NCBI GenBank assembly: GCA_018433675.1
Contig: JAHDQS010000006.1
Location: 130,425 to 194,424 of the forward strand
Source of the DNA: Clostridia bacterium
Lineage (GTDB): Bacteria; Bacillota; Peptococcia; DRI-13; SM3-B62
DNA length: 64,000 bases
Reading direction: 5' to 3'
Positions 3,999-38,497 of the stretch are shown one piece after another. Positions within the stretch are counted from its first letter, which is position 1. The number at the start of each line of letters is the position of its first letter. The translations under genes were made by a program, and so were the position numbers. The notes under the pieces were generated by a model, which made no database searches, had not been told where the DNA came from, and was given only the letters and a program-made list of their open reading frames with translations.

Positions 3999-5732
3999 CT
4001 ATTCCTCTGCTAGTTCAAATATCCCCTCCGCTATTTCTCTGAAGACCGGCGCGGCCGAAGACCCTCCCTGCAGACCGCTTCTCTCGCCGCTGGTATTCTC
4101 CTCAATCATCACGGCGATGGCGAACTTTGGCTTTTCAACAGGTGTGTAGCCGGCAAACCAAGCAATTACCCGCCCTTCATCATTAACCTGAGCGGTACCG
4201 GTTTTGCCGGCTGTTCCTTTCCCCTGCACCCAGGCCTGTCGGCCCGAACCTGATAACACAGCCTTTGCCAGGGCCTTCTGAAGCAGCGCAGATGTATCCT
4301 CCGACATGACTTGAACCGAAGGTGTCGGAGAATCTTCAAAGACAACCTCTCCCTGGTAATTACGAATAGAAGAAACCAGACGGCAGGGACAATACCAGCC
4401 GTTTCGGGCAATAGTGGCATAAAGATTGGCCACCTGTAAGGGACTGACCAGTACCCCTTGCTGCCCTATTGAAGTATTCCCCAAAAGGGCAGGTGGTGAA
4501 GACGAAGTTAAATTGACTGCAAAACCCAGCTTTGCCGCGTATTCCCTTAGCTTATCATTCCCCAATCTCTGTCCCAGTTGTATAAAAGTCGTATTGCATG
4601 ATTTCGTGATAGCCTCAATAAGATTAATATCGCCGTGCTTTTGCAAACACTTGATCTCGGTCCCGTCAGAAAAGACATAACTACCCTCGCAAGTAAACAC
4701 CTCATCAGGATCAACAAGCTTCTCCTCCAAAACACCTGTCGCTACGACCATTTTGAAGACCGAACCCGGGTAAAAAGCGACCCTTTGTGTCCGATCGATC
4801 AACTCATCGTAACCGTCAATAAATTTTTCTACCTCGTTTTGATCAAAATTCGGTCGGCTGGCGGCCGCTAAAATATCGCCGGAAGCCACATCGACGATAA
4901 CCACCGCCCCACGTGCGATTTTCTCATCCATGACCTTTTCCACAATCTCTTGATAACGCCTGTCAAGTGTAAGTATTAAATGATTACGCCAAGAGTCCGA
5001 GGATATTTCCTGAATTTTGTACCCTAACCCTTCTATGATTTTCCCGCCGGCATCAGAGATAGCCAGAATTGATTTTTCGGCCTTCGTTCCTCTTAAGGCC
5101 TGCTCATATTTCTTTTCCAGTCCGGCAACTCCTATTTTATCATTAATCCTATAAGAAGTAGGCAAATCCGCATTAGTGTCTCTCGTCTTTTTCTGTTCTT
5201 TCAACTCATCCCACTGTTCATCATCAATACCGTTCAAATGCCCGATAAGGTGTCTGGCCACCGAGTCCGGGCCATATCTGTTTTTAATGGGTATTACCTC
5301 AATCCCGCTAATTTCCTGGTTTTCAAGCGTCAGTACATCCGCGGCCTCAAGATTGACTTTTAGAAAAAAAGGTGTCCTTTTGCCAAGAGCCTCCCGGTTT
5401 CTCTCAATCTGTTTCACCGTGTATTCATGCGCCAGGCCAATCCGATCCTCCAATAGCTTTGCAGTATCTTCCACGTTCCTGATGCTTCCGGGGAAGACCA
5501 CCAATGCCGGTCTTACACCACTATCCGTGAGCGAGAAAAAATTACGGTCCAGTATTTCACCCCGGCAATAATCTTCTCCGGCTATGATTTGCGTACGAAA
5601 CTTAATGGCCTTTTCGGCCAAAGCCGCTCCGGAGTTATCACCGTTGTACAACTGAAGATAACCCGTTCTTAATACGACCGCCCACATAAGAAGCCCTGAA
5701 ATACACAATAAGATGTTAATCCTTTTACCCAT
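3999..5732 (-). CDS. Penicillin-binding protein 2 / FtsI-SpoVD-type D,D-transpeptidase
   Basis: 577-aa class B penicillin-binding protein that cross-links peptidoglycan outside the membrane. An N-terminal signal anchor (about residues 5-25) is followed by a PBP dimerisation domain and a transpeptidase domain. All three catalytic boxes are present: S324-V-F-K327, S378-C-N380 and K510-T-G512. The start ATG has a GGGAGG site. It belongs to a run of wall-related genes (mltG, vanW) and probably ends the cluster that begins near mltG. There is no PASTA domain, so it is closer to FtsI/PBP2 types than to full-length SpoVD. Whether it serves division, elongation or sporulation cannot be told from sequence. 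Confidence 0.88.
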   Translation of the reverse strand: MGKRINILLCISGLLMWAVVLRTGYLQLYNGDNSGAALAEKAIKFRTQIIAGEDYCRGEILDRNFFSLTDSGVRPALVVFPGSIRNVEDTAKLLEDRIGLAHEYTVKQIERNREALGKRTPFFLKVNLEAADVLTLENQEISGIEVIPIKNRYGPDSVARHLIGHLNGIDDEQWDELKEQKKTRDTNADLPTSYRINDKIGVAGLEKKYEQALRGTKAEKSILAISDAGGKIIEGLGYKIQEISSDSWRNHLILTLDRRYQEIVEKVMDEKIARGAVVIVDVASGDILAAASRPNFDQNEVEKFIDGYDELIDRTQRVAFYPGSVFKMVVATGVLEEKLVDPDEVFTCEGSYVFSDGTEIKCLQKHGDINLIEAITKSCNTTFIQLGQRLGNDKLREYAAKLGFAVNLTSSSPPALLGNTSIGQQGVLVSPLQVANLYATIARNGWYCPCRLVSSIRNYQGEVVFEDSPTPSVQVMSEDTSALLQKALAKAVLSGSGRQAWVQGKGTAGKTGTAQVNDEGRVIAWFAGYTPVEKPKFAIAVMIEENTSGERSGLQGGSSAAPVFREIAEGIFELAEE

Positions 5733-5792
5733 CAGAAAAAGAACCTCCCGCTTCTATCCTCGCCGAAAAGTTCCTGTTTTAATCACATGTTT

Positions 5793-6065
5793 TTAATCAC
5801 CTGTTTGCCCTGTCAAATACTCAATAGCAAAAGGCATCTCCGCCAGTATTTTCATGACTTCCTGCCTTGTATCCGGGGTAACACGTACCATCACCAAGCC
5901 CTCCTGAGGATCAAGGGTCGACACCACCCCAAGATTATCATATCCCTCAATGATCCTATTCAAAAAATTGATGTCTTTTTTCGGTATTCTCAGAAGGATC
6001 CTGTTTTCCAACTCTCTCATCTTTTCCAACCCCATCATCCTTTGGCCCGCCGAATCAAATCCCAT
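5793..6065 (-). CDS. DUF4911 domain protein
   Basis: Small cytosolic protein of up to 90 aa resembling the DUF4911 family, found beside U32 peptidase genes in Clostridia. No catalytic motif is visible; the fold looks like a short alpha/beta domain (ILLRIPKKDINFLNRII, VVSTLDPQEGLVMVRV). It overlaps the end of the U32 gene by 31 nt if translated from 6065. A downstream ATG at 6038 (MMGLEKMRELEN) would give a 4-nt overlap typical of coupled genes, so the start is uncertain. Conserved linkage suggests an accessory role in the same tRNA or wall pathway, but that is inference. Confidence 0.7.
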   Translation of the reverse strand: MGFDSAGQRMMGLEKMRELENRILLRIPKKDINFLNRIIEGYDNLGVVSTLDPQEGLVMVRVTPDTRQEVMKILAEMPFAIEYLTGQTGD

Positions 6066-7255
6066 TTGCTCACCGGCTTATCCACCGGCATCCTCACGAC
6101 CTGTTGCGGATGCGGCGCTATTTCTATACATTCCCCTTCCTCATCCTGCAGCTCCGTCAAGGACTGGGAGAACACATCCAACGAAGGCCCGAAAAACTCC
6201 AGCACATCACCAACCCCGAAATTATTACGCTGTTCAACCGTAGCCCAGCCTGTCTCTTTATCATAATCTAAGACCAGACCGACAAAATCATAGTCCCTCA
6301 GGTAAGAGGACGTCCCGTAATTATGGTCTTTTTCATCCGGCTTGCCGAACAAAAAGCCGGTGGTGTAATCACGATGACTGACCTTAGTTATTTCCTCATC
6401 CCACGCAGGGTCAAAGGAATAGTTTTGCGGATCACGGTAATACTCATCCAGCGCCCTGCGGTACGCATTAACGACAGTCGCCACATAGTGGATGCTCTTC
6501 ATGCGTCCTTCAATTTTCAAGCTGCTGACTCCGGCCTCGAGCAAAGCCGGCAGATGGTGTATCAAACACAAATCTTGAGAATTAAAGACATAGGACCCCA
6601 ATGCATCCTCCTCAAGAGGATAATATATGCCGGGCCTCTTTTCTTCAACGAGGGCATATTTCCAGCGGCAGGGCTGAGCACACTCACCCTTGTTGGCATC
6701 CCTGCCGGCCATGTAATTGCTCAAAAGACAGCGTCCCGAATAGGAAATACACATGGCACCATGGACAAAAACCTCCAGGTCAATACCGACATGCTTTCTG
6801 ATTTCCATAATTTCTTGCAAAGACAACTCCCTGGCCAAAACCAGCCGTTTCATGCCATGGTTTTCCCAAAACTTTGCCCCGGCCCAGTTGACCGTATTAG
6901 CCTGGGTACTGAGATGAAGATCGAGGTTTACTCCCGTATCCCGCACGATCTGCCATACACCCGGGTCGGAAATAATGAGACCGTCGATTCCGGTCTTCTC
7001 CAGTTCTTTTAAGTATTCCGGCAGCATCCTGATATCATCATTATGGGGGAAAATATTAACCGTCACATACACCTTGGCCCGGTGTTCATGGGCAAATCTT
7101 ACGCCCTCCGCAATCTCCTCCAGGCTGAAATTATCGGCGAAGGCTCTCAAGCCAAAGAGCTTTCCTCCCAGGTAAACGGCATCCGCACCGTAATGCACGG
7201 CTATTTTTAACTTCTCCAAATTTCCCGCGGGAGCAAGAAGTTCAACTTTCTTCAT
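6035..7255 (-). CDS. trhP: U32 family protein, tRNA hydroxylation protein TrhP-like
   Basis: 406-aa TIM-barrel-like U32 family protein. Despite the peptidase name, characterised relatives (B. subtilis YrrN/YrrO, E. coli TrhP) take part in prephenate-dependent 5-hydroxylation of U34 in tRNA. The iron-sulfur cysteine set is visible: C169, C176, C192 and C196 (C-x6-C-x15-C-x3-C). The N-terminus VELLAPAGNLEKLKIAVHYG is the family signature. It starts 6 nt after trmR, giving the B. subtilis yrrL-M-N/O order mltG-trmR-trhP. B. subtilis has two adjacent U32 genes; here only one is seen, similar in length to YrrO. Function by synteny is likely; a true protease role is less likely. Confidence 0.85.
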   Translation of the reverse strand: MKKVELLAPAGNLEKLKIAVHYGADAVYLGGKLFGLRAFADNFSLEEIAEGVRFAHEHRAKVYVTVNIFPHNDDIRMLPEYLKELEKTGIDGLIISDPGVWQIVRDTGVNLDLHLSTQANTVNWAGAKFWENHGMKRLVLARELSLQEIMEIRKHVGIDLEVFVHGAMCISYSGRCLLSNYMAGRDANKGECAQPCRWKYALVEEKRPGIYYPLEEDALGSYVFNSQDLCLIHHLPALLEAGVSSLKIEGRMKSIHYVATVVNAYRRALDEYYRDPQNYSFDPAWDEEITKVSHRDYTTGFLFGKPDEKDHNYGTSSYLRDYDFVGLVLDYDKETGWATVEQRNNFGVGDVLEFFGPSLDVFSQSLTELQDEEGECIEIAPHPQQVVRMPVDKPVSKWDLIRRAKG

Positions 7256-10465: not shown

Positions 10466-10640
10466 CCAAATCCCCCCGTCACAAAACATGCATATTACAA
10501 TTTACCGGCTTGGGGGAATTTTATGCCTAATATAGTTTTGCATTCTTTGCATAAATCGTCGAGGGACCTCCTGTCATGACGGTACATATATTGAAATACA
10601 AGGATTTAGTAAAATATCTTAATTGACAGGAGTGTAGAAA

Positions 10641-11258
10641 TTGCAAGAGGTTTTTCAGAAAATATATGAAGGCAATATGTGGGGAGGAAAAGAATCTGTT
10701 TCTGGTCCTGGTTCGAGCCTTAAGGAAACAAAAGTGCTGATTAGCAAACTAGGAACTTTGTTTTTGCGGTTTAAAATAAACACTGTTTTGGATGCTCCGT
10801 GTGGAGATTTCAACTGGATGAAACATGTCGACATGAAGCGTATCAAGCAATACATCGGTGTAGATATTGTTCCCGCACTCATTAAACAGAATAATCATAA
10901 ATACGCAAATGAGAAAAGGCATTTTCTCTCACTGGATATATCCAAAGACCCTTTACCCCAGTCGGATATAATTATTTGCCGAGATTGCCTTGTTCATTTT
11001 TCCGTTCAGGACATATGTAGATCGTTAAAGAATTTTAAAGAAAGTTCTTCCAAATACCTTCTCACCACCACTTTTAACAAGCATTTAGTAAATAATGATA
11101 TCACAACCGGTAGCTGGAGATTTTTAAATCTAGAGGTGGAGCCATTTAATTTCCCAAATCCGACTTATATAATCAAAGAACATCCCGTCTGGGATAAATG
11201 TATGGCTTTATGGCTTCTGGATGATCTGAATGTCATTGCCTCACAGCTGCCAAAATAA
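10641..11258 (+). CDS. Class I SAM-dependent methyltransferase of unknown substrate
   Basis: 205-aa soluble protein and the first of the few plus-strand genes. Motif I is VLDAPCGDFNWMKHV and the acidic ribose loop is YIGVDIVPALI; SDIIICRDCLVHF corresponds to motif IV/V. The start is TTG at 10641 behind GACAGGAGTG. The AT-rich composition and opposite orientation differ from the wall genes on its left, suggesting independent acquisition. The 3' end faces the S41 gene with 25 nt between the two stops and no visible terminator. The substrate cannot be inferred. Confidence 0.8.
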   Translation: MQEVFQKIYEGNMWGGKESVSGPGSSLKETKVLISKLGTLFLRFKINTVLDAPCGDFNWMKHVDMKRIKQYIGVDIVPALIKQNNHKYANEKRHFLSLDISKDPLPQSDIIICRDCLVHFSVQDICRSLKNFKESSSKYLLTTTFNKHLVNNDITTGSWRFLNLEVEPFNFPNPTYIIKEHPVWDKCMALWLLDDLNVIASQLPK

Positions 11259-11283: not shown

Positions 11284-13407
11284 TCACTGAACCTTTAACT
11301 TGATGCAAACTCCAATAATAGCACATAATCCCACTCCTATCAGGATTCCTTTCTTCATTCTGTTTGGTCCTTCTTGCTTCGCCGAATTCACATACTCAAG
11401 AGCTGTGGCTAACGTCAGGTCATCATCTCCGATTTCTTCTTCCAATGAATAAGGAATGATAATATCCGGAATAACGCCCCTGCCATATTCAACATCAGAT
11501 GCTACATAATTAGGTATGATTTTTACAAGGGGTACCTGTAAAATAAGCCCTGATTCACCAAGACGGATCTTAGAAAATTTCAATGCATTCATATGATGAA
11601 TTGCTCCGGAACCTTCTCTTCCCAGAACCAAACCGATTTTATGGTATTGAATCAGATTTGATAAAACCGTAGCAGCCGATCCGGTCAGTTCCGAAGTTAA
11701 CACATATATTCGTTTATCTTCACATAAGTTTTTACCCTGAATTTCCGCAAATTCATCCGGGTGGGTTGTCCAGTCTATATAATAATCATTGGTTGTCTCA
11801 TCATACAAGTAGTCTGCAAAACATGCTATTTCGCCAGTCAAATTTAAAGCATACTTATTAAACTCATATGATTCATTGCTTCTTACCTCATACCTTTTTT
11901 CAACAATAAAAGAACCATCATAAAGCATCTGAAACAATTTCTCTACTGATTCATCACTTCCGCCCATGTTTTTACGCAAATCAATGATTATATTTTCCGC
12001 GTCAGGTGCGGTTAAAGCTTCTTCTACCGTTTTAAAGTGCTCGTCTGTCAAGTACATCGTATTTATCCCCAGAATTAAAGTGTCCCCTTTTCTATTTACC
12101 TCTACGTACTGATAATCGCCTGGGCTTTTTTCCGGTATTTCCAAACTTTCCAGCGTGAAAGAAATTTTTCCGTGATCCGTTTCCATTACAAAGGGATCCC
12201 CAAGCTTAGGCCTATACACAATGTCATAAAGGTATTTAAAACCACTTCCTAAAGACGGGGATTCTTTAAGCAGATAGATATCACTGAAACCTTTGATATT
12301 TCCATCCGCTGTTCCGGCGGCTCTCTTAAGCTTTTGACTTACAATCTCTATAGCTTCGCCATTGATAGCAGTAATCTCATCTCCAATATTTAGTTGGTCC
12401 AAATCTTTATAAATATCTAAAACATAGCATTTACCGTTGATAAAACCTAATTTTACAGGCAAATCGTACGGTATATCATAGGCCATATCTTCATTGGACA
12501 GGTATGATTTTGCAATATATGTATGATTGTCCTTAACCAAATGGATAATTTCATTTAGATGCAAAAACAATTCATTTCTTCTTAAAGGTTGACTTAACTT
12601 GCTTTTCAATTCTTTAAATGCCGTATCCAGCTGCTCTTTATCCGTGTAAGCATATAAACTCGGATGCCCTTCCATTAACGATTGATAAAAAATCGCATAT
12701 ATTTCATCCAACTCATCTATTGACAAGTAGTCCTCTCGATAATCTATTTCAGACTTTTGATTTTCCCGATTTATTTTTTCTTCACTCTTCTTTTCCTTAA
12801 TCTCTTCACTTTGATTCTCTACGCTGTCATTGTTGCTCGTATTTGTAAAATTGCTAATCACTTTTTCAATATCCCCAAGTTTATTACCAACTTCATAGGA
12901 TACGGTCAAGCTTTTTTCAGGTACATCTTTTATGCCATATCCTATCTTACCCAAATAACTTCCCTTTTTGACTTCTTGACCTTTTGTTACATTAGCTGTA
13001 CCGGGTTCAATGCCTATGTAATAAACCTTCTCTGTTTTATTCAGTGCTATACAAACGGTCATGCTTATATATTTTGTATCAACATTATTTTTTTTAAGAC
13101 TTTTTACCGCCTCCTCATAACTAGCAAATCCATAGGTCATATAGAAATTGGGATTAAAACTATATTGGACCGATTGAACTGTTCCCTCCGTTATTGATAT
13201 GGCATTACCCATTCTTTCACCGGAAAAACAGTACTTCATGAAAGGTTCTTCTTTCTTAAGGTATTTGTTATATATATAATCCTTTGGTCCATAAATAACA
13301 TCTTTTTCACTTCCGCCTTCAATTGGCAGCTGAGCAAAAGTTCTTATACCGAATAACTGAAAAGCTACTATTACCATGAGCACAATTGCAATTACTTTTT
13401 TCTTCAT
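11284..13407 (-). CDS. Exported S41-family serine protease with N-terminal M23-like fragment
   Basis: 707-aa exported protein. A signal peptide starts at ATG 13407 behind an ideal AAGGAGG; the frame's extra 13 codons upstream lack a site. After it comes a beta-rich stretch (VTKGQEVKKGSYLGKIGYG) like the beta-barrel part of M23 peptidases but without metal ligands. A Glu/Lys linker follows, then an S41 protease region with IIIDLRKNMGGSDESV and the nucleophile region VLTSELTGSAATVLSN. A C-terminal hydrophobic helix near the end (GILIGVGLCAIIGVCI) is a second anchor. Its promoter carries the same operator as the blaI promoter, so it is probably the output gene of the BlaI/M56 pair. The cleavage target is unknown. 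Confidence 0.82.
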   Translation of the reverse strand: MKKKVIAIVLMVIVAFQLFGIRTFAQLPIEGGSEKDVIYGPKDYIYNKYLKKEEPFMKYCFSGERMGNAISITEGTVQSVQYSFNPNFYMTYGFASYEEAVKSLKKNNVDTKYISMTVCIALNKTEKVYYIGIEPGTANVTKGQEVKKGSYLGKIGYGIKDVPEKSLTVSYEVGNKLGDIEKVISNFTNTSNNDSVENQSEEIKEKKSEEKINRENQKSEIDYREDYLSIDELDEIYAIFYQSLMEGHPSLYAYTDKEQLDTAFKELKSKLSQPLRRNELFLHLNEIIHLVKDNHTYIAKSYLSNEDMAYDIPYDLPVKLGFINGKCYVLDIYKDLDQLNIGDEITAINGEAIEIVSQKLKRAAGTADGNIKGFSDIYLLKESPSLGSGFKYLYDIVYRPKLGDPFVMETDHGKISFTLESLEIPEKSPGDYQYVEVNRKGDTLILGINTMYLTDEHFKTVEEALTAPDAENIIIDLRKNMGGSDESVEKLFQMLYDGSFIVEKRYEVRSNESYEFNKYALNLTGEIACFADYLYDETTNDYYIDWTTHPDEFAEIQGKNLCEDKRIYVLTSELTGSAATVLSNLIQYHKIGLVLGREGSGAIHHMNALKFSKIRLGESGLILQVPLVKIIPNYVASDVEYGRGVIPDIIIPYSLEEEIGDDDLTLATALEYVNSAKQEGPNRMKKGILIGVGLCAIIGVCIKLKVQ

Positions 13408-13444
13408 AATTTCCTCCTTGGTTATATAAGATATTTTATTCCGC

Positions 13445-13503
13445 AAAAAGGACTATCGCGATAGACCTGTGTCTAGTCTACCGCGATAGTCCTTTTTTGT
13501 CAA
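13445..13503 (-). promoter_or_regulatory. Promoter of the S41 gene with two dyad operators; also a terminator-like hairpin
   Basis: On the minus strand TTGACA (13498-13503) and TAGACT (13475-13480) are exactly 17 nt apart. A dyad GACTATCGCGGTAGAC lies over the spacer and -10. A second dyad GTCTATCGCGATAGTC (13451-13466) lies just downstream of the expected start. The spacer and -10 align base for base with the blaI promoter (15 of 23 identical). The two dyads together also form 22-bp arms (13445-13466 and 13476-13497) around a 9-nt loop, flanked by A and T runs, so the element could end blaI-M56 transcription as well. Confidence 0.7.
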
Positions 13504-13520
13504 GCCACTATTTTTATATA

Positions 13521-14969
13521 TTACCGGACTATACTGGCCTCTAAAAATGTCATAGGATCAATAAATTCACCATTGTATAACACTGAAAAATGCAGATGTG
13601 GTCCGGTTCCACTAAATCCAACCGTCCCTATTTCTTGTGATTTTTTAACTTTTTGATCTTTTTCTGCTTTGATTGACTGGCACCTTGCGTACCATGTCTC
13701 ATAACCGTTTTTATGCGTAACTTTGATCAACAAACCATATTTCTCATCCTCGCCAACATATGATACATACCCATCCTCAACAGCCATAATCACATCACCT
13801 TCACGAGCACTGATATCTATACCGTCATGATAAACTGCCTGTGAGGATATATTAAAACCTTTTGTAATTTTTCCGTCGATTACCGGACTAACCATATTCA
13901 GCACATATATATCATCAGACACCTTGACATTTGGACTTGGATTATCAATTCCCAATACCTTTATTGGATTTGTTAGCATAGTAATAGAAAACATAATTAA
14001 AATCGCACAATAAAGACAATAAAAAGGAACGCTGTCTTTCTTTACAATCAACAGGTTTTCTATTCTTTTTCTTAGGCTATTATTACCAAAGGTAAGAAAG
14101 AGTTTCTCAAGCGGTTTATTATTTATTTTTTGGAATGACAACATCGAGTACATATAGTTTTGCTTTATGCCTCGCCCGTATACATTAATTACCTTTTCAT
14201 CACAAGACATTTCAATATCTTCACTTAATAACCTTACCGCCCACCAAACCAAGGGATTAAACCAATGAATACATGCGATAAAATATACAGCTAATTTGAC
14301 TAAATAATCTTTTCGTTTCAAATGAATAAGTTCATGTGCTATAACATGTACTGCTTTTTCTTCTTTTATATTCAACGGCAAATACACTTTCGGTTTAAAT
14401 AATCCGCAAACCATCGGGATAACCACCTGGTCTGTTTCATAAATCTTAACATCTTTTTTTAGCCCTAAATTGAAGGCAACTTCCTTAACAATACTACTTT
14501 TATATTTGGTTGCGGTTTTCAATGAGTGTATAACCTTTATGTATTTTATTACTGTAAATACAATCAAAATAAAAAAACCACTTAACCAGATAATACTTAA
14601 AATCTCACCTGTTAATTTGGCTGGAAATCTTGTTTCTTTGGGTTCCCCTTGTACGAAATTCCCCAATGTTTCAATTGGCTGTTTCATGCTAATATTTATT
14701 TTCGAAAGATTCACGAATTGTACATCATCCGAAAGGTATGATACTACTTCTACCTCTTTATCAAATAAAGCTTCAACAAAATTAAACGAACTTAATTCAC
14801 TGGATATGGTAACGGGAAGAATCAGTCGGATAAAAAACACCATCCAAAGGGTATAGAAGACAATGGAAGGTACCTTCTTTTTAAACACTTTCCTTAATAA
14901 CACTACACTTATCCCTATTATGGATGCCGTTATACCCATGCTGATAATACTTTCAAATAATTCAACCAT
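13521..14969 (-). CDS. M56 (BlaR1/MecR1-like) membrane metalloprotease fused to an M23-like domain
   Basis: 482-aa membrane sensor-protease. Helices near residues 5-25, 35-53, 121-142 and 318-335 frame an M56 domain with zinc motif H212-E-L-I-H216 and downstream ECD-like SEDIEMSCDE. Instead of the penicillin-binding sensor of BlaR1, the outer C-terminus is an M23 lysostaphin-like domain: H381-D-G-I-D385 and H458-L-H460. The usual Y-x-H of active M23 enzymes reads Y-A-R here, so the domain may bind peptidoglycan rather than cut it. It follows blaI by 14 nt. In characterised pairs the M56 protease inactivates the BlaI repressor on signal; by analogy this one senses wall fragments. Confidence 0.87.
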   Translation of the reverse strand: MVELFESIISMGITASIIGISVVLLRKVFKKKVPSIVFYTLWMVFFIRLILPVTISSELSSFNFVEALFDKEVEVVSYLSDDVQFVNLSKINISMKQPIETLGNFVQGEPKETRFPAKLTGEILSIIWLSGFFILIVFTVIKYIKVIHSLKTATKYKSSIVKEVAFNLGLKKDVKIYETDQVVIPMVCGLFKPKVYLPLNIKEEKAVHVIAHELIHLKRKDYLVKLAVYFIACIHWFNPLVWWAVRLLSEDIEMSCDEKVINVYGRGIKQNYMYSMLSFQKINNKPLEKLFLTFGNNSLRKRIENLLIVKKDSVPFYCLYCAILIMFSITMLTNPIKVLGIDNPSPNVKVSDDIYVLNMVSPVIDGKITKGFNISSQAVYHDGIDISAREGDVIMAVEDGYVSYVGEDEKYGLLIKVTHKNGYETWYARCQSIKAEKDQKVKKSQEIGTVGFSGTGPHLHFSVLYNGEFIDPMTFLEASIVR

Positions 14970-14983
14970 TTGATTCTCCTACA

Positions 14984-15346
14984 TTAATCCTTGTATTGAT
15001 CAATAATCAGCTTTAATTCTTCAGCTTCTTCAACTGAAATTTTTTTACCATCCAAAAAAGACACAAGAAAACGAGGCAACGAATCATCAAAAGTTGTATG
15101 GATTATTTTTTCGCTTTCATATTTTTTCACTTCTTCTATTCTGACTAATGATGACACAATTGCATTTTCGCTTTTAATTATATTACGATCTTTAAGCTTT
15201 TTAAGCATAGTATAAGTTGTTGACTTTTTCCATCCGAGCAATTCATTACATGTTTTTACTAACGACGTAGAGTTTATCGGTTCGTTTTTCCATATAATTT
15301 TCATTAATTTGTATTCTGCATCAAATAGCTTATATGAATCCTCCAT
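14984..15346 (-). CDS. blaI: BlaI/MecI/CopY-family transcriptional repressor
   Basis: About 120-aa winged-helix repressor. The DNA-binding part has the family pattern DAEYKLMKIIWKNEPINS followed by KKSTTYTMLKKLKDRNII, and a helical dimerisation tail completes it. The ATG at 15346 (MEDSYKLFDA) is favoured over a GTG four codons upstream (15358), though neither ribosome site is strong. It is the first gene of a two-gene operon with the M56-M23 sensor. It is probably autoregulated: its own promoter and the S41 promoter carry a shared dyad. Confidence 0.9.
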   Translation of the reverse strand: MEDSYKLFDAEYKLMKIIWKNEPINSTSLVKTCNELLGWKKSTTYTMLKKLKDRNIIKSENAIVSSLVRIEEVKKYESEKIIHTTFDDSLPRFLVSFLDGKKISVEEAEELKLIIDQYKD

Positions 15347-15391
15347 TGTTCTACTCACTTTCTTCTTTACTTTTCTTACCTCTCAGAAAAA

Positions 15392-15420
15392 AGTTTACTA
15401 CAGTAGACCTATTATGTCAA
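15392..15420 (-). promoter_or_regulatory. blaI promoter with BlaI-type operator
   Basis: Minus-strand TTGACA (15415-15420), a 17-nt spacer and TAAACT (15392-15397). The dyad GTCTACTGTAGTAAAC (15393-15408) covers the -10 region and resembles TACTAC/GTAGTA operators of the BlaI/CopY family. The spacing and many bases match the S41 promoter at 13475-13503. Confidence 0.7.
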
Positions 15421-15471: not shown

Positions 15472-16302
15472 TTACCCCTGAACAAGCCCATTCAGCGTTT
15501 CCAGCTGAGCAATCAATTCCTCCATAGATGCCGCTATCTCCTGTGTGGCTGAGGACTGTTCCTCGCTGACTGCACTCGTTTCCTGAGTATCACCGTTTAT
15601 GCCCTCTATGGCCCCTGCAATTTCTACAAGAATTGATTCAACCTGCTTAGCGGAGTTATTACTTTCCGCTGCAAGCCTCCTTATCTCTTCGGCCACAACG
15701 GCAAATCCTCTTCCGTGTTCCCCGGCCCGAGCTGCTTCAATAGCCGCGTTTAACCCTAACAGCTTGCTCATATCGGCAATCTCTCGTATCATCCGAATTA
15801 TTTCATCAGTCTTCTTCACGTTTTCTTTCGCCTGTTGAGTTGTTGCCGCCAGTCTTGTTCCAATATTAGCCATATTCTGGGCTCCAAAAGCTATTTCTTG
15901 CACACTGCTATTCACCTGCTCAAAGGCTGAACTAAACTGCTCAATAACCTCCCGCAACTCGTTCTGACTCTCCAAATCACGGCCGATTGCGACTGCTCCG
16001 ATTACATTATTTTCTTTATCAAAGATCGGTTCAGCAATGGCTTTATACGAAACGCCATAAACCTCTTTCTCAACTAACATCATTTCCTTTTTTCTTCCCT
16101 GCATCGCGGCATATAATGAACTACCAGTTTGAACCCGATCTCCAATTTTAGCTTTTATATCCAGGCCATCTGCAGGTACGTACGCAAGAATTTTTTCCGT
16201 ATCACAGACCAGTACAAACACATCAAAAGCATATAAATCTTTCAGACATGGTGCAATAGTCACAAATGCATCTAAAATTTCTATGCCGGTGAATTTTGCC
16301 AC
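15472..16302 (-). CDS. Soluble methyl-accepting chemotaxis-type signalling protein
   Basis: 276-aa protein without membrane segments. The N-terminal half looks like a small sensor domain related to double-Cache/PAS ([19 protein letters not shown]). The C-terminal half is a shortened MCP signalling hairpin with the tip [24 protein letters not shown]. It would signal to CheA/CheW in the cytoplasm. The start is GTG at 16302 behind GAGGAGG. Only the trimmed hairpin remains, a form common in Clostridia. The ligand is unknown; there is no che gene nearby. Confidence 0.88.
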
Positions 16303-37009: not shown

Positions 37010-38497
37010 CTAACATTTGATTTCATATTTATCTATCTTCCTGTATAAAGTTGCGATTCCTATACCAAGTAATTTTGCTACTTCATTCCTGGCTTCTAAA
37101 TCATGGCCGAATTTTTTAACATGTTCTTCAATTATTGCTTTTTCATATTCTTCCAGTCTGCTTTTTAAATCCATCTTACTAATAGTTAATTTATTCATTT
37201 TTTTGCGATAGTGGGGGGGGAAGTCTTTTAACTTAATAATATCTCCTTCACACATATTTACATTATATTCGATTATATTTTTTAGTTCCCTTATATTACC
37301 CGGCCAATTATAAGATTGAAAAAACTCAATTACTTCTATGTCAAAATCGGGAGTTTCTTTTTGCAATTTTTCACAAAACAATTGCGCGAAATATTTTGCG
37401 CATAATATTATATCATATCCCCTTTCCCGTAACGGTGGTATATGAACTGGAATTACATTGAGACGATAAAACAAGTCTTCTCTAAAACGACCTGCTGTTA
37501 CTTCAGTTTCCAAATCTTTATTTGTGGCAGCGACAATCCTTACATTAACTTTAACAGGGTCATTTCCACCAATTTTTTCTACCATACTTTCCTGCAGAAA
37601 TCTTAACAGTTTTGGTTGAATACTAATCGGCATATCAGCTATTTCATCAAGAAATATTGTTCCCCCATCCGCCATTTCAAACTTACCCCTTTTACCGGAA
37701 GGCAGTGCCCCTGTAAAAGAACCCTTTTCATAACCGAAAAGCTCACTCTCTAATAACGTTTCTGGTATGCTTGCGCAATTTATTGCAATAAACTTCTGAT
37801 GTCGGCGGCTACTAAGCGCATGTATGGCACTGGCAAAAAGCTCTTTACCAGTACCGGTTTCTCCTTGCAGCATTATATTAGTATTTGTATCAGCTACTTT
37901 CTTTACAATACTTTTGACATTTTGCATCTCTTTACTTTCCCCGATTATATCTGAAAATGCTTGTTTGTATACCGAGGAAATATATTTATCATCATCTAGA
38001 GCAAGGTTGTTTTGCACTACTTCGTAAACAATATTCTTTTTCATAATATTATTCTGAATTAAAACGTTAAGCTCTATTTTACTTTCCAGCAAATTGCTAA
38101 TATTTTCTAGCAATTTTATATAAGACTTCTCCTTCTGAAGAATTCTTATCCTTTGGTTTTCATTAAACGCTATTATCCAGATCGAGCCAACAACCTTATT
38201 TTCAAGAAACAATGGGTATCCGACTGAAGCCAATTCTAAACAAACATCTCTGTTAGGACAATTAGCACACTTTAATCTATCCTTCATAACAACTGTTTCT
38301 CCATTTTTGTGTATTCTTTGGAGAAGCTGTCCGGGAGACGCAGTTTTCCCTAAAACGCATTTATATGCTCCTGTCCCTGCAACTCTGTAAAAATCATGGT
38401 CTACAATAGTTGCATCCACTTCTAAAGTTGTTGACATAACCTCCACAAAATTTTGAACTGAATCTTTTATATTTTGTAAGTGAAAAATAATAATCAC
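37010..38497 (-). CDS. Sigma-54-dependent transcriptional activator, module 2
   Basis: 495-aa enhancer-binding protein. The N-terminal sensor domain (1-145) carries C77-x2-C80-P-x4-C86, the same motif as in the module 1 activator. The AAA+ domain has Walker A GETGTGKE (212-219), the sigma-54 loop as GSFTGA (259-264; usual GAFTGA) and ADGGTIFLDEIADM. A Fis-type helix-turn-helix ends the protein (AKLLGIGIATLYRKIDKY). It lacks the PAS domain of its paralogue. It probably binds the AATAATTATCA palindromes next to the two module 2 promoters. Confidence 0.92.
   Translation of the reverse strand: MIIIFHLQNIKDSVQNFVEVMSTTLEVDATIVDHDFYRVAGTGAYKCVLGKTASPGQLLQRIHKNGETVVMKDRLKCANCPNRDVCLELASVGYPLFLENKVVGSIWIIAFNENQRIRILQKEKSYIKLLENISNLLESKIELNVLIQNNIMKKNIVYEVVQNNLALDDDKYISSVYKQAFSDIIGESKEMQNVKSIVKKVADTNTNIMLQGETGTGKELFASAIHALSSRRHQKFIAINCASIPETLLESELFGYEKGSFTGALPSGKRGKFEMADGGTIFLDEIADMPISIQPKLLRFLQESMVEKIGGNDPVKVNVRIVAATNKDLETEVTAGRFREDLFYRLNVIPVHIPPLRERGYDIILCAKYFAQLFCEKLQKETPDFDIEVIEFFQSYNWPGNIRELKNIIEYNVNMCEGDIIKLKDFPPHYRKKMNKLTISKMDLKSRLEEYEKAIIEEHVKKFGHDLEARNEVAKLLGIGIATLYRKIDKYEIKC

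Follow-up and report, generated by a model that had tools for sequence, protein, structure and literature searches.

The window, i.e. the whole stretch of 64,000 nucleotides that was analysed, carries on its minus strand a blaI gene, the gene of a BlaR1-type sensor and the gene of an S41 peptidase.

14984..15358, minus strand: blaI, a winged-helix repressor of 124 residues from GTG 15358 (PF03965, E 3e-18)
13521..14969, minus strand: BlaR1-type M56-M23 sensor of 482 residues (PF05569, E 7.1e-52; PF01551, E 1.7e-26)
11284..13407, minus strand: S41 peptidase of 707 residues from ATG 13407 (PF03572, E 9.7e-19)

The blaI ORF has an alternative start at ATG 15346, which aligns with the start of its relatives (M-E-D-S-YKLFDAEYK). 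A start of the S41 gene at TTG 13446 was considered and rejected, the true start being ATG 13407, which is preceded by AAGGAGG. The S41 gene is monocistronic, and the adjoining methyltransferase gene (10641-11258) is convergent. Gene listing and profile searches report neither a beta-lactamase nor a PBP target at the locus, and no putative protein partner of the sensor is encoded adjacent to the sensor gene. Upstream of blaI, the window encodes a short MCP-like protein (15472-16302), three tandem relatives of which are found in the sister genome (G001:C44).

Domain architecture of the sensor and of the S41 protein

Hydropathy and motif analysis assigns to the sensor four transmembrane helices, the M56 motifs H212ELIH and E253xxxD257, and a C-terminal M23/LytM domain (residues ~365-477). 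BlaR1 carries matching M56 catalytic residues and transmembrane helices (PMC9834060). The first-pass annotation had described a sensor devoid of a beta-lactam domain and carrying an M23-like domain instead, and Pfam analysis indeed returns only M56 and M23. The BlaR1 equivalog model covers residues 13-332 only, with 121 bits for a cut-off of 400. The pair resembles BlaR1-BlaI and MecR1-MecI in its Penicillinase_R repressor, in its M56 sensor comprising the HEXXH and ExxxD motifs, four transmembrane helices and an extracellular C-terminal domain, and in the autoregulated blaI-blaR gene order with dyad operators predicted over the promoter. It differs from them by the M23/LytM domain that replaces the penicillin-binding (SXXK) domain, and by its predicted target, which is an S41 protease and not a beta-lactamase or PBP2a. 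The system would work like BlaR1-BlaI, yet judged by its domain content it is no beta-lactam sensor. An ordinary beta-lactam response, with the S41 protein as a further resistance-related output, could still operate through cytoplasmic muropeptides acting on BlaI: the B. licheniformis BlaI binds the wall dipeptide gamma-D-Glu-m-A2pm and releases its operator (PMC3305447), and beta-lactams would generate such a muropeptide signal indirectly. Such a response is nonetheless improbable for a sensor that has no penicillin-binding domain, at a locus that has neither a beta-lactamase nor a PBP target.

The AF2 model of the C-terminal M23 domain, built from seven sequences, reaches a pLDDT of 78, and its best PDB matches are all M23/LytM proteins (E 3e-9), with EnvC, DipM and ActS among its nearest solved or curated relatives. 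The zinc ligands H381, D385 and H460 are retained. The catalytic histidine pair is incomplete: H458 is present, and the YxH motif reads Y427-A-R429, with an arginine for the histidine. When the sensor is compared with nine other M56-M23 proteins, each encoded next to a blaI gene, catalytic or zinc residues are lost from the M23 domain in seven of the ten. Besides the present sensor, three keep the zinc ligands and have Gln, Val or Lys in place of the YxH histidine (L208, L209, L210), zinc ligands are missing from three others (L087, L093, L097), and the full catalytic set is found in the remaining three (L086, L207, L211). By contrast, the M56 residues H212, E213, H216, E253 and D257 are invariant in all ten (L211 being read from an internal start). 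Two of these loci, L208 (G175:C4) and L209 (G010:C61), hold blaI/M56-M23 pairs that are near-identical although their genomes belong to different families of the phylum, which suggests recent transfer or contamination. Other BlaI-linked M56 sensors of relatives (L081, L082) have neither an M23 nor a penicillin-binding domain and end in DUF4825, another candidate sensor domain.

Because the signalling protease stays intact while the wall-peptidase fold erodes, the M23 domain probably serves as a receptor and not as an enzyme. If it were an active endopeptidase, the sensor would be a regulated wall hydrolase with its enzymatic activity as output or trigger; residual activity is conceivable with the three zinc ligands and H458 in place, and three of the ten proteins have the complete set. 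We nevertheless regard this as unlikely, since the YxH histidine is Arg429 here and is replaced in three other proteins, three more have lost zinc ligands, and the M56 residues never vary. As to what the putative receptor domain binds, peptidoglycan fragments are the candidate that we put forward tentatively, with somewhat less than even confidence. Since the usual binding partners of degenerate M23 domains are other proteins (PMC9662197), a wall enzyme, and not a muropeptide, may be the ligand. Sensing of a protein, for instance an amidase or another wall hydrolase, in the manner in which EnvC and NlpD bind amidases, would also agree with the presence of EnvC, DipM and ActS among the nearest relatives. 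The retained zinc ligands would however be needless for a pure docking surface, and no partner gene adjoins the sensor gene, so that this second type of ligand seems a real but less probable candidate.

The S41 protein comprises a signal peptide, an N-terminal region of ~200 residues, the S41 domain and a C-terminal transmembrane helix (residues 688-706), and it is predicted to be anchored so as to face the same side of the membrane as the M23 domain of the sensor. Its S41 domain is of the IRBP/CPAF type, with PDB matches to retinol-binding protein 3 (IRBP) and a match to the CPAF model, and exhibits the motifs DNHT 293, TGSAA 575 and EYGRGVIPD 640, the catalytic serine being assigned by motif only. 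The protein falls outside the CTP/Prc subfamily (NCBIfam TIGR00225, 27.3 bits vs a cut-off of 218.6). The N-terminal region was thought in the first-pass annotation to begin with an M23-like fragment, which is not borne out (13.4 bits vs a cut-off of 28.7; ~19 residues aligned, 37% probability). AF2 prediction of the S41 protein without an alignment yields a pLDDT of 36.

Among exported S41 proteases of the envelope, CtpA of P. aeruginosa degrades the M23 hydrolases MepM and PA4404 (PMC6050968), and by analogy a possible role of the present protein would be the removal of wall hydrolases. It shares with CtpA and Prc the nature of an exported S41 serine protease in the envelope, and differs from them by its IRBP/CPAF-like, non-CTP domain, its C-terminal membrane anchor and its long N-terminal region devoid of an assigned fold. 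The CtpA precedent and the shared membrane face would also fit a feedback protease that cuts the sensor itself or M23-type wall hydrolases, as opposed to some other downstream effector. This assignment is rather doubtful, since the domain scores far under the CTP model cut-off (27 vs 219 bits) and the substrate is proposed by analogy.

Operators at the blaI and S41 promoters

Both the blaI operon and the S41 gene are preceded by promoter-like sequences on the minus strand, listed here with the associated dyads.

15392..15420, minus strand: blaI promoter (-35 TTGACA at 15420-15415, 17-nt spacer, -10 TAAACT at 15397-15392)
15409-15392, minus strand: single blaI operator, GGTCTACTGTAGTAAACT, spanning the spacer and the -10 (20.4 bits)
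13475..13503, minus strand: S41 promoter (-35 TTGACA at 13503-13498, 17-nt spacer, -10 TAGACT at 13480-13475)
13492-13475, minus strand: S41 operator 1, GGACTATCGCGGTAGACT (14.8 bits)
13450..13467, minus strand: S41 operator 2, GGTCTATCGCGATAGTCC, its centre 25 bp downstream of that of operator 1 (17.4 bits)
13445..13497, minus strand: hairpin with a 23-bp stem formed by the two S41 operators and flanking A6/T5 runs

The TTGACA-17-TARACT arrangement common to the two promoters had been pointed out in the first-pass annotation together with 15 identical bases out of 23 across spacer and -10, and a recount gives the same figure. As such, the bare promoters are unremarkable, with 20 promoter-like sites in the region vs 20.2 expected from shuffled sequence, and what carries information is not the -35/-10 match itself but the 18-bp dyad, which occupies both the spacer and the -10. 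Across the 3.0 Mb of the genome, GGNYTAYNNNNRTARACT is matched exactly at four positions, two at this locus and two at a second blaI/M56 locus, a count that is descriptive as GGNYTAYNNNNRTARACT was drawn partly from the window. The test is a position matrix built from 12 blaI/M56 promoter sites, all outside the window. Among all positions of the 64 kb, this matrix ranks the blaI site first, S41 operator 2 second and S41 operator 1 fourth, with 0.03, 0.07 and 0.23 matches expected at the respective scores. S41 operator 1 taken alone (14.8 bits) scores below the sites of relatives, and the two S41 arms do not count as separate pieces of evidence, since a likeness between palindromic operators follows from their mutual pairing. 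A further operator-like sequence, AATTTATTGCAATAAACT (37777-37794, 17.3 bits), lies within a sigma-54-type regulator gene (37010-38497) and is probably a chance match.

The two S41 operators and their A6/T5 flanks fold into a hairpin of -41.4 kcal/mol (z -9.4) that starts 24 nt past the sensor stop codon. Judged by its fold only, it has the shape of an intrinsic terminator, with a stable, GC-containing stem of 23 pairs followed by T5; a consensus scanner does not list it. An RNA initiated at the S41 promoter starts within the hairpin and shows no structure of note (z -0.5). Hairpins are to be expected of any paired palindromic operators, and the T-run that immediately follows operator 2 is missing from most other operator promoters. 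The possibility that the hairpin is a repeated element was rejected, as it is unique in the genome, and Rfam reports no match in the 10-17 kb part of the window. The S41 operator pair may thus have a second function behind the sensor gene, as terminator of the blaI-M56 transcript.

The stability of the 23-bp stem, its T5 tail and its position 24 nt past the sensor stop raise the question of whether the dyad serves the sensor gene as intrinsic terminator and nothing more, with a chance resemblance to an operator, and the S41 gene is transcribed by read-through or from some unrelated promoter. However, the dyad is placed relative to TTGACA exactly as the operator is in relatives, both arms are scored as operators by a matrix built from sites outside the window, and the 25-bp spacing fits the twin operators of 31 other promoters. 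The composite promoter-operator pattern also yields few false matches (about seven non-BlaI and three control matches in 398 genomes). A terminator without operator function is thus very unlikely; the terminator and operator readings are compatible, and both can hold.

Operators and blaI loci in related genomes

Upstream of blaI genes of the class, the same layout is found in TTGACAATAAAGGTTTATCGCGGTAAACT (L034), TTGACACGGGAGGTTTATCGCAGTAAACT (L031) and TTGACAATAAAGGTTTATCACAGTAAACT (L048). In 46 class genomes, TTGACA combined with the operator returns 17 matches vs one for the reversed control, and all 17 are located in blaI/M56 loci. Extended to 398 phylum genomes, the composite promoter-operator pattern returns 46 matches vs three for the reversed control. 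According to their flanking genes, 36 of them precede blaI or M56 and one precedes an M56 remnant, one lies at a contig end, about seven are chance-like, lying within unrelated genes or in front of them, and the last is the window's S41 promoter. By this pattern search, the S41 promoter is the sole convincing match before a gene other than blaI or M56 in the 398 phylum genomes. The dyad, of which the first-pass annotation expected conservation in relatives, is thus kept as such as far as the operator itself is concerned.

The twin arrangement recurs as well: a second operator is centred 25-32 bp downstream in 32 of the 47 operator promoters examined, S41 included (25 bp), and ordinary 57-nt stretches hold a site of such a score in only 1.7% of cases. 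There are two operators at the S41 promoter and one at the blaI promoter of the window, where a second was searched for and not found. In a further genome, strong twin BlaI operators precede what appears to be the C-terminal part only of an M56 protein (L185, G333:C1:2340000-2350000, 5158-6243); the same genome has a second, intact blaI/M56 locus (L184).

BlaI proteins with the recognition helix GWKK[SP]TTYT go with the present operator, and in L085, L086 and L087 both the helix and the operator differ. Within the genome of the window, the BlaI of the second locus (G000:C32) is 57% identical to that of the window and has a nearly identical helix (GWKK[SP]TTYTM); since helix type and operator are the same, cross-regulation between the two repressors is possible. 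The third blaI/M56 pair of the genome (L085, G000:C57, 3296-5839) differs in its recognition helix and in its operator, GGATTACATATGTAATCC.

DAP-seq and EMSA data on two C. thermocellum BlaI proteins report the half-sites GTCTAT and GACTAT, arranged as paired inverted repeats at each true target (PMC8457756), and the S41 site contains these very half-sites. The BlaI_0696 and BlaI_1845 regulons of that organism resemble the present system in the half-site, in the paired inverted repeats (four protomers) per target and in a very small, autoregulated regulon (PMC8457756). They differ in the separation of the inverted repeats (five nucleotides there, four here), in their targets, which are BlaR1s and hypothetical proteins, and in the blaI promoter of the window, which has one operator and not two.

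In the sister species, locus L088 (G001:C38, 4036-9598) comprises blaI, an MBOAT O-acyltransferase gene and a DHHW/AlgX-like gene, followed by an operator-bearing promoter before M56. It is the orthologue of the second blaI locus of the genome of the window (L084, G000:C32, 229-3333), where both operator promoters are kept and the MBOAT and DHHW/AlgX-like genes are reduced to remnants (peptides such as DPIVRYKDI and DGYGEL, within 650-1050). The presence of this gene pair at L088 suggests that the targets of BlaI proteins of the present type vary and concern the envelope. For the majority of such BlaI-M56 pairs in the phylum, there seems to be no target other than the pair itself. Neither a second sensor-S41 pair nor a relative of the whole locus is found in the other genome of the genus, in the 46 class genomes or in the about 398 phylum genomes, a set that represents about half of the known species, the S41 linkage coming from one genome. 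The other genome of the genus does not have the locus; its sequence shows 90% identity as far as window position 10534, beyond which it diverges, near a contig end. A search of genome contigs for relatives of the locus returns only M23 relatives, and plasmids yield only partial matches.

A proposed circuit

Taken together, the operators make it highly probable that BlaI controls both promoters, and its control of the S41 gene is very likely. BlaI would repress its own operon, encoding itself and the M56-M23 sensor, through the single operator, and the S41 gene through two operators, of which the first lies over the spacer and the -10 and the second a short distance past the start site. Disturbance of the wall would let the extracellular M23/LytM domain engage a ligand, for which peptidoglycan stem peptides or a wall enzyme are the most likely candidates. 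The M56 protease, on the cytoplasmic side, would then cleave BlaI, as is presumed from the BlaR1 family, and the membrane-anchored extracellular S41 protease would be made. The complementary S41 operators with their A6/T5 flanks probably stop read-through from the sensor gene, and therefore S41 expression would depend on its own BlaI-controlled promoter. The whole circuit is likely to be a BlaR1-BlaI-type system in which both the sensor domain and the target are different.

A literature search on M56-M23 sensors returns nothing beyond a mention of the architecture. The M23-M56 fusion reported in a review of M23 proteins (PMC9662197) is the same domain pair, a rare architecture (<1%) to which no function is given there, and in contrast the present pair is tied to blaI, to operators, to a target gene and to a recurrent loss of M23 catalytic residues. 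As a tentative generalization, in which we have limited confidence, BlaI-linked M56-M23 proteins may be widespread wall-damage receptors, i.e. sensors derived from endopeptidases in which catalysis was lost independently several times, and here the receptor would control an exported protease anchored in the membrane, by way of paired operators that at the same time terminate the receptor transcript.

BlaI-M56 pairs are common in the phylum, and most have no recognisable sensor ligand or target beyond their own operon. The present locus provides both ends of such a circuit: a sensor domain whose fold is recognisably wall-related, and a target gene whose operators are clear. Should M23 domains indeed act as receptors, BlaR1-type signalling would be a general readout of wall state, and antibiotic sensing one branch of it.
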